62,453 nt of DNA, from positions 1-62,453 of the forward strand of contig JAFTID010000007.1 of the NCBI GenBank assembly GCA_017457085.1, given 5' to 3'. The DNA is from Phascolarctobacterium sp. GTDB lineage: Bacteria > Bacillota > Negativicutes > Acidaminococcales > Acidaminococcaceae. Position numbers and translations under genes: made by a program. Positions 5,517 through 10,340 of this stretch are shown piece by piece. The notes under the pieces were generated by a model. The model ran no database searches, was not told the origin of the DNA, and worked only from the letters and a program-made list of their open reading frames with translations. Positions within the stretch are counted from its first letter, which is position 1, and every line of letters starts with the position of its first letter.

Positions 5517-5525
5517 TTAAATAAT

Positions 5526-5554
5526 TTGACACTCTATTAGAAACACGTTACAAT
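5526..5554 (+). promoter_or_regulatory. Promoter of candidate antisense (antitoxin) RNA
   Basis: TTGACA (5526-5531), 17-bp spacer, TACAAT (5549-5554). It points into the 3' end of the small hydrophobic ORF on the opposite strand, and no protein gene lies downstream on this strand. Confidence 0.7.
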
Positions 5555-5560
5555 ATAAGT

Positions 5561-5653
5561 ACAAAGAGGTGCCACCGTAGACGGTTGCCCTTATAGCTTA
5601 GTTTTCAAAAAAATGATTGCCAAGTTTCTCGGGCCCGGCGATCATTTTTTTGC
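5561..5653 (+). ncRNA. Candidate antisense RNA antitoxin
   Basis: A transcript of about 90 nt is predicted between the promoter at 5526-5554 and a hairpin (AATGATTGCC with GGCGATCATT) ending in TTTTTTT at about 5653. It overlaps the stop codon and 3' region of the small toxin-like ORF on the minus strand, and its terminator would also serve that convergent transcript. Its 5' part (AGGTGCCACC..CGGTTGCCC) resembles the 5' leader of the opposite transcript. Convergent RNAs sharing a terminator resemble the Fst/par and TxpA/RatA layouts. Confidence 0.5.
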
Positions 5654-5731
5654 ATTTATACCAATCCAAAAACCATACATTAACACTGTAAAGGCTAAGC
5701 TTATTACAGCGACAACTTCAAGAATTGTCAT
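5642..5731 (-). CDS. Small hydrophobic peptide, holin-like type I toxin candidate
   Basis: 29 residues from the ATG at 5731 (31 from 5737). It begins MTILEVVAVISLAFTVLMYG and ends WIGINAKK: one transmembrane helix with a Lys-rich tail, the layout of the short 'putative holin-like toxin' family of Firmicutes. AAAGGAGG stands 9 bases before the inner ATG, the better-spaced start. The stop codon lies inside the shared terminator hairpin. A long structured leader, a promoter at 5846-5874 and an opposing small RNA fit a type I toxin-antitoxin locus. Such toxins act at the membrane; toxicity here is inferred only. Confidence 0.6.
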   Translation of the reverse strand: MTILEVVAVISLAFTVLMYGFWIGINAKK

Positions 5732-5744
5732 GGACATCACCCTC

Positions 5745-5845
5745 CTTTACGAATAATTCTTTGTAAAACAAAAAGCTATTTGTTTGGAGGGCTGCAAACC
5801 CTCCGAAGAGGGCAACCGCCTACCCGTTTGGTAGCACCTAAAAAT
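5745..5845 (-). promoter_or_regulatory. Structured 5' leader of the toxin-like mRNA
   Basis: Read on the minus strand the leader starts AGGTGCTACC, forms CTACC/GGTAG and GGAGGG/CCCTCC hairpins, and contains GGCGGTTGCCCTC. The AGGTGCYACC..CGGTTGCCC pattern is shared with the start of the opposing RNA at 5565-5590, so the two lie as inverted repeats about the ORF. The toxin mRNA 5' leader could therefore pair with its own 3' extension (GGGCAACC). Confidence 0.45.
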
Positions 5846-5874
5846 ATTTTAGCATATTGTTTACAAAATAACAA
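5846..5874 (-). promoter_or_regulatory. Promoter of the toxin-like ORF
   Basis: On the minus strand TTGTTA, 17-bp spacer, TAAAAT, giving a 5' leader of about 110 nt before the ribosome binding site. Confidence 0.5.
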
Positions 5875-5885
5875 ATAAAAACGAA

Positions 5886-5925
5886 AAGAAGTTCTCTTTT
5901 GCGAGAGCTTCTTTTTATTTTATGA
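5886..5925. terminator. Intrinsic terminator hairpin
   Basis: GAAG-t-TCTC and GAGA-g-CTTC arms with flanking A- and T-rich runs; it could stop transcription in either direction between the toxin locus and the MNT gene. Confidence 0.55.
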
Positions 5926-5980
5926 TAGAATATTTTGTTTTTGGGTGGGAATTTTAGAAATTAGCAAAATGAAAAGTAAA

Positions 5981-6030
5981 AGACAACCAGAAGAGTTAAA
6001 AGAATTTTCTCTAATGGTTGTCTTATTTTA
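5981..6030 (-). repeat. Duplicated terminator hairpin, copy 1
   Basis: AGACAACCA..TGGTTGTCT hairpin with an inner AGAG/CTCT stem, downstream of the minus-strand nucleotidyltransferase gene. 47 of 50 bases recur in direct orientation at 6415-6464, so the gene 6042-6353 lies between two nearly identical copies. Confidence 0.8.
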
Positions 6031-6041
6031 CTATTTCTAAA

Positions 6042-6353
6042 TCATGCTGGTTTTGCATAAACTAAAATACCGTCCTTTTGAATAGCATTCGTAATGTAAT
6101 CGTCCAGTTTTTTATAGCCTTCAGGGTCAACGACAATATCAACTTCCTTGTTTAAAGCCTTTTTGAAATCAAGGAACAACCCGCTTAATTGGAACATACC
6201 ACGTAGGCTTCCACGTTTTATATAAAAATCATAGTCGCTATTTTCAGTAGCTTCATCTCTTGCCTGTGAGCCAAAAAGATATACAGCTTCTAATCCATAT
6301 TTTTCAGCAACAGGTACAATTTTTTCTTTTATTTCATTTAATTTTCTGCACAT
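6042..6353 (-). CDS. MNT-type minimal nucleotidyltransferase
   Basis: 103 residues, the length of stand-alone MNT/MntA domains. The active-site signature YLFGSQARDEATENSDYDF (GS.AR..SD.D, about residues 25-43) and a later DIVVD acidic strand are intact. Such proteins are usually the antitoxin half of HEPN/MNT systems and AMPylate the HEPN partner; here no HEPN gene is adjacent. The ATG at 6353 follows a weak AAGGCGGTGA site. The gene is bracketed by two nearly identical terminator hairpins, which suggests it was gained as a cassette or lost its partner. Confidence 0.85.
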   Translation of the reverse strand: MCRKLNEIKEKIVPVAEKYGLEAVYLFGSQARDEATENSDYDFYIKRGSLRGMFQLSGLFLDFKKALNKEVDIVVDPEGYKKLDDYITNAIQKDGILVYAKPA

Positions 6354-6414
6354 CTAGCTCACCGCCTTTCTTTTTTATATTATAACATTCAAAAATCAAT
6401 GCTTGCAAATAAAA

Positions 6415-6464
6415 AGACAACCAGAAGAGTTAAAAGATTTTTCTCTAATGGTTGCCTTATTTTT
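6415..6464 (-). repeat. Duplicated terminator hairpin, copy 2
   Basis: Same hairpin as at 5981-6030 (AGACAACCA with TGGTTGCCT). It terminates the minus-strand XRE gene and its right side overlaps that gene's last codons and stop. Confidence 0.8.
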
Positions 6465-6657
6465 TGTTTGTTCTACCGAGAATATAATCTGTTGTAGTTT
6501 CGTGAAAATCTGCTAGGGCAATTAAAACACTTGTGGGTAAATCACGAGTGCCTCGCTCGTAATGACTATAAGCTTGTTGAGTACAATAGAGTATCTTTGC
6601 CATTTCAGATTGCGTTAAATCTTTATCTTCTCGTAAATCTTTTATACGGGTAAACAT
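6457..6657 (-). CDS. XRE-family helix-turn-helix regulator
   Basis: 66 residues, almost only the HTH_3 fold: FTRIKDLREDKDLTQSEMAK, YCTQQAYSHYERGTRDLP, then ALADFHETTTDYILGR. This matches the Cro/CI-type fold that binds operators as a dimer. The start at 6657 is chosen because AGGTG sits 6 bases upstream; two earlier in-frame starts overlap that site. It is divergent from the IRG-like GTPase operon and the 112-bp gap contains that operon's promoter, so it probably controls the GTPases and itself. Confidence 0.85.
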   Translation of the reverse strand: MFTRIKDLREDKDLTQSEMAKILYCTQQAYSHYERGTRDLPTSVLIALADFHETTTDYILGRTNKK

Positions 6658-6700
6658 TAGCATCACCTGCTTGAATTATACGAGAAGCCTGTGACACAAA

Positions 6701-6729
6701 TTGAAATTTACTACAAATTGTGGTACAAT
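6701..6729 (+). promoter_or_regulatory. Promoter of the tandem GTPase operon
   Basis: TTGAAA (6701-6706), 17-bp spacer, TACAAT (6724-6729), 40 bp before the start. It lies in the divergent gap shared with the XRE regulator. Confidence 0.65.
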
Positions 6730-6769
6730 TATATTTGTTGGGAAAGTTAATTTTAGGGGATGTGTATTT

Positions 6770-7825
6770 ATGGCTCTAAAGGATTCATTTTTACAAGTTT
6801 TGAAAAATGTTCGTAACAATACCAAAGCTTATACATGTATTGCTGTTGTCGGGCAACCAGGAGCGGGAAAGTCTAGTCTTATAAATAATTTGATTGGGGA
6901 AAAAGTTGCAGAAACCGGACCTCAAACTGATGTGACTAAGCTTATAAGTGCCTATGAATATAATTTCATGAGATTATTAGATGTACCAGGGTATGGAACC
7001 AAATTATTTCCGTTTGAAAAATGGATACAAGATTATCCATTAGAAGACTATGATGCAATAATATATGTGTACGCTAGCAAGTTGATAGAGGAAGATAGTA
7101 AATTATTCGAACATATAAGAATTTGGAATCAATATAGAAGAAAACCACTTTTTCTAGTTAGAAATCATTGTAACGACTTAGAGAATGAAAATGAAAGACT
7201 TGATGTAGAAAAAGATTTGAAAAAATCCCTGTCTTATTCTGGAGTTGTTAGTAATGATGTGATTTTTGTGGATTGTAGCAGAGAAAAAGTTGGAATAACT
7301 GAATTGAAATTAAAAATTGAGCAAGCAAATATAGTTAATATCTGGAAACAAAGGATTAGTGATAGTTTCGAAAAAGCACGCGATGTATATTTAGAAGAGA
7401 AAAGCCTTTTAGCAATGGGAGAAATTGATACATATAAAAAATTAGCTGGTGCAAATGGATTAAATCCTATTTTAGTAGCTGATATGGCTATTGATGTGGG
7501 TATATATTTAAAAATGTTTGCCGATATTAGAAAATGTTATGGAATTGAGCAGAATGACTTCAATTTATATGTAGTATTTCCTGTTGCGAAGAAACTTGCA
7601 GAGCTTCTTACGAAACAAGGTGTTATATTATTAATAAAAAATTTTGGGACACGATTTATGGTAAAAAATACATCTAAATATATTCCAGTTATAGGACAAG
7701 CTGTTGCAGCAACAATAAGTTGGAACTTAGCAAAATATGCTGGGGAACAGTACAATAACGATTGTATAGAATTAGCTAAAGATGTTATGAATGATTTAAT
7801 TCATAAAGAAATAATGAAAATATAA
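6770..7825 (+). CDS. IRG-like (immunity-related) GTPase A
   Basis: 351 residues. G1 is VVGQPGAGKSSLINNL (about residues 24-39), G3 is LLDVPGYGTKLFPFE, and the G4 area reads FLVRNHCND, departing from canonical NKxD. After the GTPase domain, GLNPILVADMAIDVGIYLKM and a C-terminal PVIGQAVAA segment match the helical domain of interferon-inducible IRG proteins. It is paralogous to the next gene, 16 bp downstream, which has a canonical RNKSD. By family it should bind GTP and oligomerise, perhaps on membranes; any defence role is inference. ATG 6770 has AGGGGATG upstream. The DNA is distinctly AT-rich next to polA or metH, suggesting transfer. Confidence 0.8.
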   Translation: MALKDSFLQVLKNVRNNTKAYTCIAVVGQPGAGKSSLINNLIGEKVAETGPQTDVTKLISAYEYNFMRLLDVPGYGTKLFPFEKWIQDYPLEDYDAIIYVYASKLIEEDSKLFEHIRIWNQYRRKPLFLVRNHCNDLENENERLDVEKDLKKSLSYSGVVSNDVIFVDCSREKVGITELKLKIEQANIVNIWKQRISDSFEKARDVYLEEKSLLAMGEIDTYKKLAGANGLNPILVADMAIDVGIYLKMFADIRKCYGIEQNDFNLYVVFPVAKKLAELLTKQGVILLIKNFGTRFMVKNTSKYIPVIGQAVAATISWNLAKYAGEQYNNDCIELAKDVMNDLIHKEIMKI

Positions 7826-7841
7826 AAGGGAGGCTTTTATC

Positions 7842-8915
7842 ATGACGAAAGAGGAACAATTAGCACAAGAATTACAGCAGAAATTTAATGAAATGGAGAA
7901 TGTTAAAGTCAAAATTGCACTACTTGGTCAGCCTGGAGCAGGAAAATCAAGCCTGATAAATTCTTTGCTTGGCAGAAAACTTTTTGAAGTTGGTGTTCAT
8001 ACTGATACTACAACTGAAAAGCAAGAAGCTAGATTTGAAGAAATTGATATTGTTGATTTGCCTGGATACGGTACTAAAGCATTCCCTTTTGAACTTTGGA
8101 AAGAAAGATTTGCGCCTGAGCAATACGACTTATATCTTTTTGTTTTTGAAGGCAAATTGCATGATACTGATGCACAGCTTTTTGAGAGTCTTAAAGAATG
8201 GAAACAAGAAAGAAATCATCCTTACTTTATTGTCCGTAATAAAAGTGATCAAATCTGGGATGATGAAAAATCTTTGTCTGAATTGAAAGATGCAATTAGG
8301 ACAGATGTTTATTCAAAAATGGGTGATAGAACTGCTGATGTGTTTTTTACTAGTTGTAGAGATAAATCTGGATTGGCTGAATTAAAAGAAGCCATTTTTG
8401 GAGCGAACATCCCAGAGGTAAAAAAATCTAAATTAGTGGCTGCATTTAAAGCAGAGACCACGGAAGATTTGAATAGGAAAAAAAGAGTCTGCTTGGATAA
8501 AGTGGATTCGTATGCGTATATGTGTGCTTTGAATGGTATCAATCCAATTCCTGGAGTTGACGTTGGAATAGATATAGGAATTCTTAATAAGTTGATGGAT
8601 GAGATAAGAATTGTTTTTGGGTTGGATGATGAAGAGAAGCTTGAAAAATATAAATTTATGTTACCTGCTGCTAAGGGGTTGGTTGAAAAAGTTCTTCAAT
8701 ATACAACTGTGTATGGAACAACCAATGTAATCAAAAAAATGGCATTGCAGTTTATCGGGAAGAAACCTCTTAAAGTAGTTCCGTTTGTTGGACAGGCTAT
8801 ATCTGCTATTTCTGGTTATATGATGACCCAGTACTTAGGAAAAGAATATATAGATACTTGTTATGAGTTAACTAAGCTTGTTTTAGAAGATGTCATAAAA
8901 AAGCAAAATAAATAG
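7842..8915 (+). CDS. IRG-like (immunity-related) GTPase B
   Basis: 357 residues. All G motifs are good: G1 LLGQPGAGKSSLINSLLG (about 28-45), G2 Thr in HTDTTTEK, G3 DIVDLPGYGTKAFPFELW, G4 FIVRNKSDQ, and TSCRDKSGL as the G5-like region. The pattern DLPGYGT..YDLYLFVF..D..L.....YFIVRNKSD is that of IRG GTPases, and the C-terminal NPIPGVDVGIDIGIL matches their helical domain. With the preceding paralogue it forms a two-gene operon (AGGGAGG before the ATG, 16-bp gap) closed by the terminator at 8941. Two GTPases with unequal G4 motifs could form a heteromer. Dynamin-like or other GTPase roles remain possible. Confidence 0.85.
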   Translation: MTKEEQLAQELQQKFNEMENVKVKIALLGQPGAGKSSLINSLLGRKLFEVGVHTDTTTEKQEARFEEIDIVDLPGYGTKAFPFELWKERFAPEQYDLYLFVFEGKLHDTDAQLFESLKEWKQERNHPYFIVRNKSDQIWDDEKSLSELKDAIRTDVYSKMGDRTADVFFTSCRDKSGLAELKEAIFGANIPEVKKSKLVAAFKAETTEDLNRKKRVCLDKVDSYAYMCALNGINPIPGVDVGIDIGILNKLMDEIRIVFGLDDEEKLEKYKFMLPAAKGLVEKVLQYTTVYGTTNVIKKMALQFIGKKPLKVVPFVGQAISAISGYMMTQYLGKEYIDTCYELTKLVLEDVIKKQNK

Positions 8916-8940
8916 AATAAATTGTTCTTTTAGGTTTATC

Positions 8941-8970
8941 GAGAGTGGAATTTTCCACTCTCTTTCTTTT
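8941..8970 (+). terminator. Terminator of the GTPase operon
   Basis: GAGAGTGGAA/TTCCACTCTC hairpin (8941-8962) followed by TTTCTTTT. Confidence 0.9.
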
Positions 8971-9029
8971 CAGAAGGACAATAACTGGCACACCTATATT
9001 CTAAAATTAGGTAAAGGAGTGTGGTTATA

Positions 9030-9800: not shown

Positions 9801-10340
9801 ATGGCTAAGAAAGTTTTGATTTTATCTGGAAGTCCCCGTAAAAACGGAAACTCTGATTTGTTATGCAATGAATTTATGCGCGGTGCGTTGGAAAGTGGTA
9901 ACGAAGTTACTAAAATTCGTGTTGTTGAAAAGAAGATTGCTCCTTGTATGGGCTGTTACTACTGCACAAAAAATAATGGCGCTTGTGCCATCAAAGATGA
10001 TATGGCAGATGTGCTTCAACAAGTTATCGATGCGGACGTTATCGTTTTGGCAAGTCCGGTGTACTTCTACTCAATTTCTGCTCAATTGAAAGCAACTATC
10101 GACAGAACCGTTGCTCGTTGGCTGGAAGTTAAAAACAAAGAATTTTACTACATTGCTACCTGTGCTGAAGCAGAACCTCAAGCTGTGGAAACTACCTTTG
10201 CCTGCTTCCGTGGTTATGCTGATTGTGTAGAAGGAGCAGTAGAAAAAGGCATACTTGCCGGAATTGGCGTCTATGAAGCTGGTGCGGTAAAAGCTACTGA
10301 ATATATGAAGCTTGCCTACGAAATGGGCAAGAATGTTTGA
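9801..10340 (+). CDS. NADPH-dependent FMN reductase / iron-sulfur flavoprotein family
   Basis: 179 residues. The flavodoxin-like N-terminus LILSGSPRKNGNSDLL binds FMN phosphate; a Cys cluster CMGCYYCTKNNGAC (about residues 50-63) and IVLASPVYFYSISAQLKATID complete the family pattern. It probably moves electrons from NAD(P)H or ferredoxin to small acceptors via FMN. Start ATG follows AGGAGG by 7 bases. It is 36 bp from the DUF1638 gene and probably co-transcribed with it. Confidence 0.9.
   Translation: MAKKVLILSGSPRKNGNSDLLCNEFMRGALESGNEVTKIRVVEKKIAPCMGCYYCTKNNGACAIKDDMADVLQQVIDADVIVLASPVYFYSISAQLKATIDRTVARWLEVKNKEFYYIATCAEAEPQAVETTFACFRGYADCVEGAVEKGILAGIGVYEAGAVKATEYMKLAYEMGKNV

Follow-up and report, generated by a model that had tools for sequence, protein, structure and literature searches.

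The closest described relatives of the GTPase pair reported here are the vertebrate IRG/p47 proteins (Irga6, Irgb10, Irgb6), among which regulatory members keep the effectors inactive, the split between both groups being marked by a GMS versus a GKS P-loop (PMC4837601). Putative bacterial and cyanobacterial relatives were reported by Bekpen et al. 2005; in the passages of that paper dealing with them, the relationship, which sequence alone could not establish at the time, is left open and structural evidence is asked for (PMC1297648). Bacterial pairs of large GTPases are also known from the dynamins, of which published pairs tether membranes as hetero-oligomers (PMC6104087), and the bacterial dynamin DynA delays phage lysis (PMC8844932). 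The open-access literature, to which the search was confined (subscription papers and preprints were outside its scope), yielded no study in which the function of IRG pairs from bacteria was addressed.

The stretch of DNA analysed (the window; 62,453 nucleotides) represents contig C16 from the 1.93-Mb genome of a gut-type bacterium, which named Acidaminococcus loci place in the Acidaminococcaceae. Following coaE and two tRNA-Leu genes, an AT-rich stretch harbours two intact, tandemly arranged ORFs for GTPases, here designated IRG-A and IRG-B (Table 1), which are separated by 16 bases and are paralogues (36 % identity over 332 amino acids, E 2e-71). An earlier note on this DNA had described two such adjacent proteins from their motifs, and the description holds: the P-loop GQPGAGKSS is common to both, switch II of A reads DVPGYGT and that of B DLPGYGT, and G4 is canonical in B (RNKSD) and diverged in A. 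The C-terminal helix sequence NPIPGVDVGIDIGIL of B has its counterpart in A in NPILVADMAIDVGIY. The GC content of the pair is 32.4 % versus 42–44 % for the flanks. Since both proteins exceed the Pfam cut-off for IIGP and many genera have tandem relatives, the pair is not a chance finding.

The ATG start was chosen for A because the predicted promoter overlaps a longer TTG frame. Promoter-like matches in the region (13 versus 14.5 in shuffled sequences) are not above chance. Overlapping the −35 box, an imperfect inverted repeat, which is partly kept beside XRE homologues, is a candidate operator for the XRE protein. The IRG operon proper extends from promoter to terminator (approximately 6701–8962). 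The divergent orientation of the XRE gene was correctly recognized by the earlier note. The MNT gene, which it had placed beside the operon, adjoins but lies outside.

Table 1 Features of the IRG locus (coordinates refer to the window)
Feature	Position	Strand	Size	Remarks
MNT nucleotidyltransferase (PDC-S09/MntA-like)	6042..6353	-		beyond XRE gene; leftover of HEPN-MNT pair
XRE regulator (HTH_3, RstR-like)	6457..6666	-	69 aa	divergent from IRG pair
Imperfect inverted repeat	6695..6722	.		CACAAATTG-N10-CAAATTGTG; overlaps -35 box; from sequence; putative XRE operator
Predicted sigma-70 promoter of IRG operon	6701..6729	+		TTGAAA-17-TACAAT, 10/12 matches, TG before second hexamer; aligns with sister species
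Swapped cargo segment	6749..8976	.		homology to sister species G025 ends at 6748, resumes at 8977
IRG-A	6770..7825	+	351 aa	P-loop of GTPase domain intact, G4 altered (RNHCND); followed by helical domain
IRG-B	7842..8915	+	357 aa	canonical IRG-like GTPase and C-terminal helical domain
Intrinsic terminator after B	8941..8962	+		one found; shuffles average 1.4

Further small elements were observed on the left side of the locus. A hydrophobic ORF of 29 amino acids (MTILEVVAVISLAFTVLMYGFWIGINAKK; 5642–5731, minus strand) is located inside an intergenic element (5524–5927), of which more copies occur in the same genome and a partial copy in a sister species; the element is a candidate type I toxin-antitoxin system. 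Two terminator-like direct repeats of 60 bp (5970–6029 and 6404–6463, 92 % identical) are situated behind the MNT and XRE genes, and only one copy was seen in the sister species.

The IRG-likeness proposed from the motifs is borne out at the level of profiles and predicted folds. Among Pfam families, the best match of B is IIGP (PF05049; 68.4 bits, 7.7e-19, profile positions 21–318 of 375) and not an Era/EngA or dynamin family. For A, IIGP ranks a close second (45.5 bits, 7.3e-12), slightly behind MMR_HSR1 (1.5e-12), and both proteins exceed the curated IIGP cut-off of 24 bits. The family is rare in Bacillota, occurring in 2 of 299 genomes with the window genome counted. Searched against PDB as sole query, B retrieved mouse Irgb10 at the top over residues 15–348. 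A profile of 24 family sequences likewise placed mouse Irgb10 first with both domains aligned (3.2e-29), whereas EngA followed at 2e-18 over the G domain only. The helical domain by itself matches IRGs weakly by sequence (E ~0.005), in the colinear place; within the family it also resembles DUF697 and EcsC, with DUF697 matched in 16 of 25 members. TALE-repeat matches of the helical-domain profile were discarded as repeat artefacts.

For the structural model of B, computed from a 59-sequence alignment (pLDDT 90, pTM 0.88), the 38 top-ranking Foldseek matches in PDB are all IRG chains. A finer structural alignment with mouse Irga6 gave a Z of 26.0 over 329 residues, compared to 16.9 over 163 residues, confined to the G domain, for the best non-IRG protein (EngB/YsxC). 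BDLP and mitofusin attained lower Z in the fold lists of the A and B models, and matches to LeoA/LeoBC and Dynamin_N are limited to the G domain. The model of A is less sure (pLDDT 85.6, pTM 0.76) and extended, with a long straight helix (residues 176–229); its top Foldseek matches are also IRGs, the superposition is poor (rmsd ~16), and its conformation was not used as a basis for conclusions. Judged from sequence and predicted fold, the entire B protein resembles IRGs, with intact G1, G3 and G4 (GQPGAGKS, DLPG, NKSD), the last being the motif at which A fails. The part preceding the G domain comprises about 20 residues versus about 65 in Irga6, where the alignment starts at residue 48; the protein is therefore termed IRG-like and not a full p47 IRG.

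Beyond the PF05049 match, features shared with the vertebrate IRG/p47 proteins are the P-loop GX4GKS, the colinear G and helical domains and the switch II DLPGxGTxxF, in which the glycine is followed by a large hydrophobic residue. In contrast to them, the bacterial proteins have the short N-terminal helical part, RNKxD at G4 and the bacterial motifs NPIPGxD and PxxGQA, and occur without an interferon system. The relatives listed in 2005 are likewise bacterial GTPases with IRG features, but neither pairs nor G4-degenerate partners are among what the relevant passages describe (PMC1297648). GTPases carrying a DUF697/EcsC-like helical domain are similar in their C-terminal part; the full-length match of B, however, is to IIGP, its DUF697 match falling below the curated cut-off. 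With bacterial dynamin pairs (Cj-DLP1/2; LeoABC) and DynA the locus shares tandem large GTPases and probable membrane action, and LeoA/LeoBC are the best PADLOC matches of the window pair, over the G domain only. Unlike these proteins, A and B are about half the size, leave the stalk unmatched and are closer in fold to IRGs.

The inequality of the two G4 motifs is conserved. The last residue of NKxD is Asp in all 90 canonical relatives, whereas in the gap-free loop alignment none of the 11 A-type proteins has Asp there, the residue being N in the window protein and T, H or E in the others. Lys of NKxD is changed to His in 10 of the 11 under either loop alignment; alternatively, G4 of A may represent NHCxD, lengthened by an insertion of one residue. 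The P-loop lysine is replaced in no partner of the alignment. The comparison drawn in the earlier note with the regulator/effector split of vertebrates is not supported: both A and B carry GKS, the pair differing at G4 and not in the P-loop, and in the absence of the GMS mark the resemblance is one of logic, not of membership in that split. Given the altered guanine-specificity loop, nucleotide binding by A would probably be weak, constitutive or of a different specificity.

A different type of G4-degenerate partner characterizes a second architecture, detected at 26 loci in Bacillales and Proteobacteria, where a canonical IRG of about 347 amino acids is directly followed by a partner of 171–248 amino acids consisting of a GTPase domain without helical domain. 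These have their own degenerate G4 (RSFAESL, RGYAEDL etc.), with Asn lost in 25 of 26, and six of the 26 have a clearly hydrophobic start (e.g., MWWLAIPVIGLVGKAIYDAV). A third kind, found in Acidaminococcaceae, comprises two full-length paralogues with canonical G4 in both. In a tree of G domains built with the G4 columns removed, G-domain-only partners (support 100/99) and A-type proteins (100/96) form separate groups, as do the Acidaminococcaceae paralogues (99/90 and 100/99; joined at 99/81). A-type and G-domain-only partners may or may not share an origin; they join in the best tree, with a support of 40/0.

Several close relatives, i.e. Schwartzia-like and Anaerovibrio genomes, possess B-type genes but no A, which shows that B can do without this partner in some cases. 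Together with the long branch of the window A (1.16 versus 0.47 for B), these solo genes would suit a B protein acting alone as homo-oligomer, with A being a decaying or redundant duplicate. We regard this as rather improbable: an intact A that has kept its altered G4 occurs in 11 genomes, and dN/dS values of 0.045–0.065 for A-type genes of close species pairs, similar to those for B, indicate strong purifying selection and hence no decay in those relatives; the G-domain-only partners found elsewhere speak against it as well. Other Selenomonadaceae (L076, L077, L078, L079, L080, L081) encode only stand-alone proteins of about 160 amino acids that correspond to the C-terminal helical domain of B (38–49 % identity; DUF697-like). 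At a further locus, a chimeric remnant between A and B (L086:3420-3624) has the start of B fused to the end of A, as would result from the collapse of an A-B-A-B array.

In the tree, window A and B each cluster with the A and B types of Selenomonadaceae (nearest those on contig L083) rather than with the pairs found in their own family, which argues for a probable horizontal acquisition of the pair. IRGs are absent from the three other species of the window genus. The site can be recognized in the sister species G025 by tRNA-Leu and flanks of 84–88 % identity; the XRE protein is 94 % identical and the promoter region also matches. Between the breakpoints, G025 contains 6.2 kb with genes for radical SAM/SPASM, PqqD, amidohydrolase-GNAT and other proteins in place of the IRG pair. 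This cargo (L174:5591-11226), which further includes a class II tRNA-synthetase-like, a prenyltransferase-like and a second radical-SAM-like protein, has the appearance of a gene cluster for a peptide natural product. XRE homologues in the window's own genome and in G035 precede GtrII/GT2 glucosyltransferase genes; in the former, a paralogous XRE gene is followed by GtrII, GT2 and GtrA-like genes (L186:5000-7823). A gene for an NADPH-FMN reductase-like protein occupies different places in the two species, being located right of the Sel1 gene in the window (9801–10340) and beside tRNA-Leu in G025 (L174:12472-13011).

With the same XRE gene and promoter preceding other cargo in relatives, both are parts of the site, for which the IRG pair is one of several interchangeable cargoes. 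The XRE protein was therefore rejected as an IRG-specific regulator, its homologues preceding radical-SAM/PqqD and GtrII/GT2 clusters. The adjoining MNT gene recalls HEPN-MNT (type VII) toxin-antitoxin systems; however, the HEPN gene is missing in the window, whereas the G025 site holds a complete HEPN-MNT pair without IRG genes, which dismisses MNT as functional partner of the IRG proteins. The supposition that XRE and MNT are parts of an IRG defence island is consequently not upheld, all the more as many relatives reside in metabolic operons.

Cargo exchange behind one XRE promoter could also mean that the pair belongs to a mobile element and protects or serves this element rather than the host, in the manner of a moron. 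An ERF recombination gene near the pair of Anaerovibrio locus L101 fits this, as do two IRG-like genes in viral contigs (L161:1284-2288 and L162:4962-6026), which adjoin tail/tape-measure genes. Nevertheless, no integrase or phage gene was identified adjoining the pair in the window, and there was no match among 50,697 phage records; with many relatives in conserved chromosomal operons, such a role appears improbable. Plasmids gave two distant matches.

Tandem relatives were found in many genera, contrary to what would have refuted the earlier note, and their settings differ. In one genus of Acidaminococcaceae (Acidaminococcus by named loci), each of the nine species has a pair, in most of them located after the L-asparaginase gene (ansA) and before an M20 peptidase gene. 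In another genus the pair follows panBCD, in g73 Selenomonadaceae it lies between pyrD and pyrF, and in Cohnella an AdoMet decarboxylase gene is located upstream. In favour of the earlier note, the sister pair on L083 and the pair on L101 are each preceded by an HTH gene, albeit an unrelated one, and followed by a NERD gene. One rhodocyclacean locus is flanked by TIR and GmrSD genes. Tallies of neighbours, taken without a background rate, comprise one type I restriction set, one CARF and the single locus with GmrSD and TIR, versus many metabolic genes; in the window, neighbours are not known defence genes, the leftover MNT excepted.

The settings in metabolic operons are the main reason for doubt over a role at the membrane or in defence. 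They would be accounted for by a metabolic or housekeeping GTPase pair tied to aspartate, nucleotide or cofactor metabolism (ansA, panBCD and pyr operons), the window copy being an accessory duplicate. We consider this unlikely. The partner genes vary by clade, and insertion into expressed operons would explain them equally well; moreover, the window lacks a neighbour of this type, the three other species of the genus do not have the pair, and the IRG-like fold with its helical domain indicates membranes.

To judge from predicted fold and family, the GTPases would belong to the dynamin superfamily and act on membranes. The reading preferred here, to which we assign about an even chance, is that of an XRE-controlled, membrane-acting IRG-like hetero-oligomer encoded by a horizontally acquired two-gene operon, with B as active GTPase and A as partner with altered nucleotide handling. 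B, with canonical G1–G4 and an IRG-like helical domain, would be the working GTPase. A, which keeps GX4GKS, would probably serve as scaffold or brake for B and set the threshold or place of its action. Both may assemble at the inner face of the cytoplasmic membrane, contact being made via two segments of the helical domain that are conserved, hydrophobic and rich in Gly and Pro, and GTP turnover by B may lead to membrane tethering, stabilisation or disruption in envelope or phage stress. As the operon has inserted downstream of an XRE gene and promoter that were already in place, it is probably subject to repression and stress-induced. Gene anatomy, homology and predicted fold, the keeping and loss of the G4 residues, recurrent pairing and the exchange of cargo are shown here, whereas the hetero-oligomer, its place at the membrane, the nucleotide behaviour of A, repression by XRE and a role in defence or stress are inferred.

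A bolder generalization, offered tentatively and in our estimate doubtful, is that unequal IRG pairs constitute a module of membrane immunity that is widespread in bacteria. The canonical IRG would be licensed by its G4-degenerate partner, be this a full-length protein or one reduced to the G domain and in some cases anchored in the membrane. If true, the effector/regulator logic of vertebrate IRGs would have a bacterial counterpart of separate origin and with another motif change. The predicted fold of B provides, as a prediction, structural evidence of the kind called for in the 2005 passages on bacterial relatives (PMC1297648). The recurrent combination of a normal GTPase with a guanine-loop-altered partner makes the bacterial root of IRG-type immunity GTPases, and their regulation by unequal partners, a question testable in laboratory strains.
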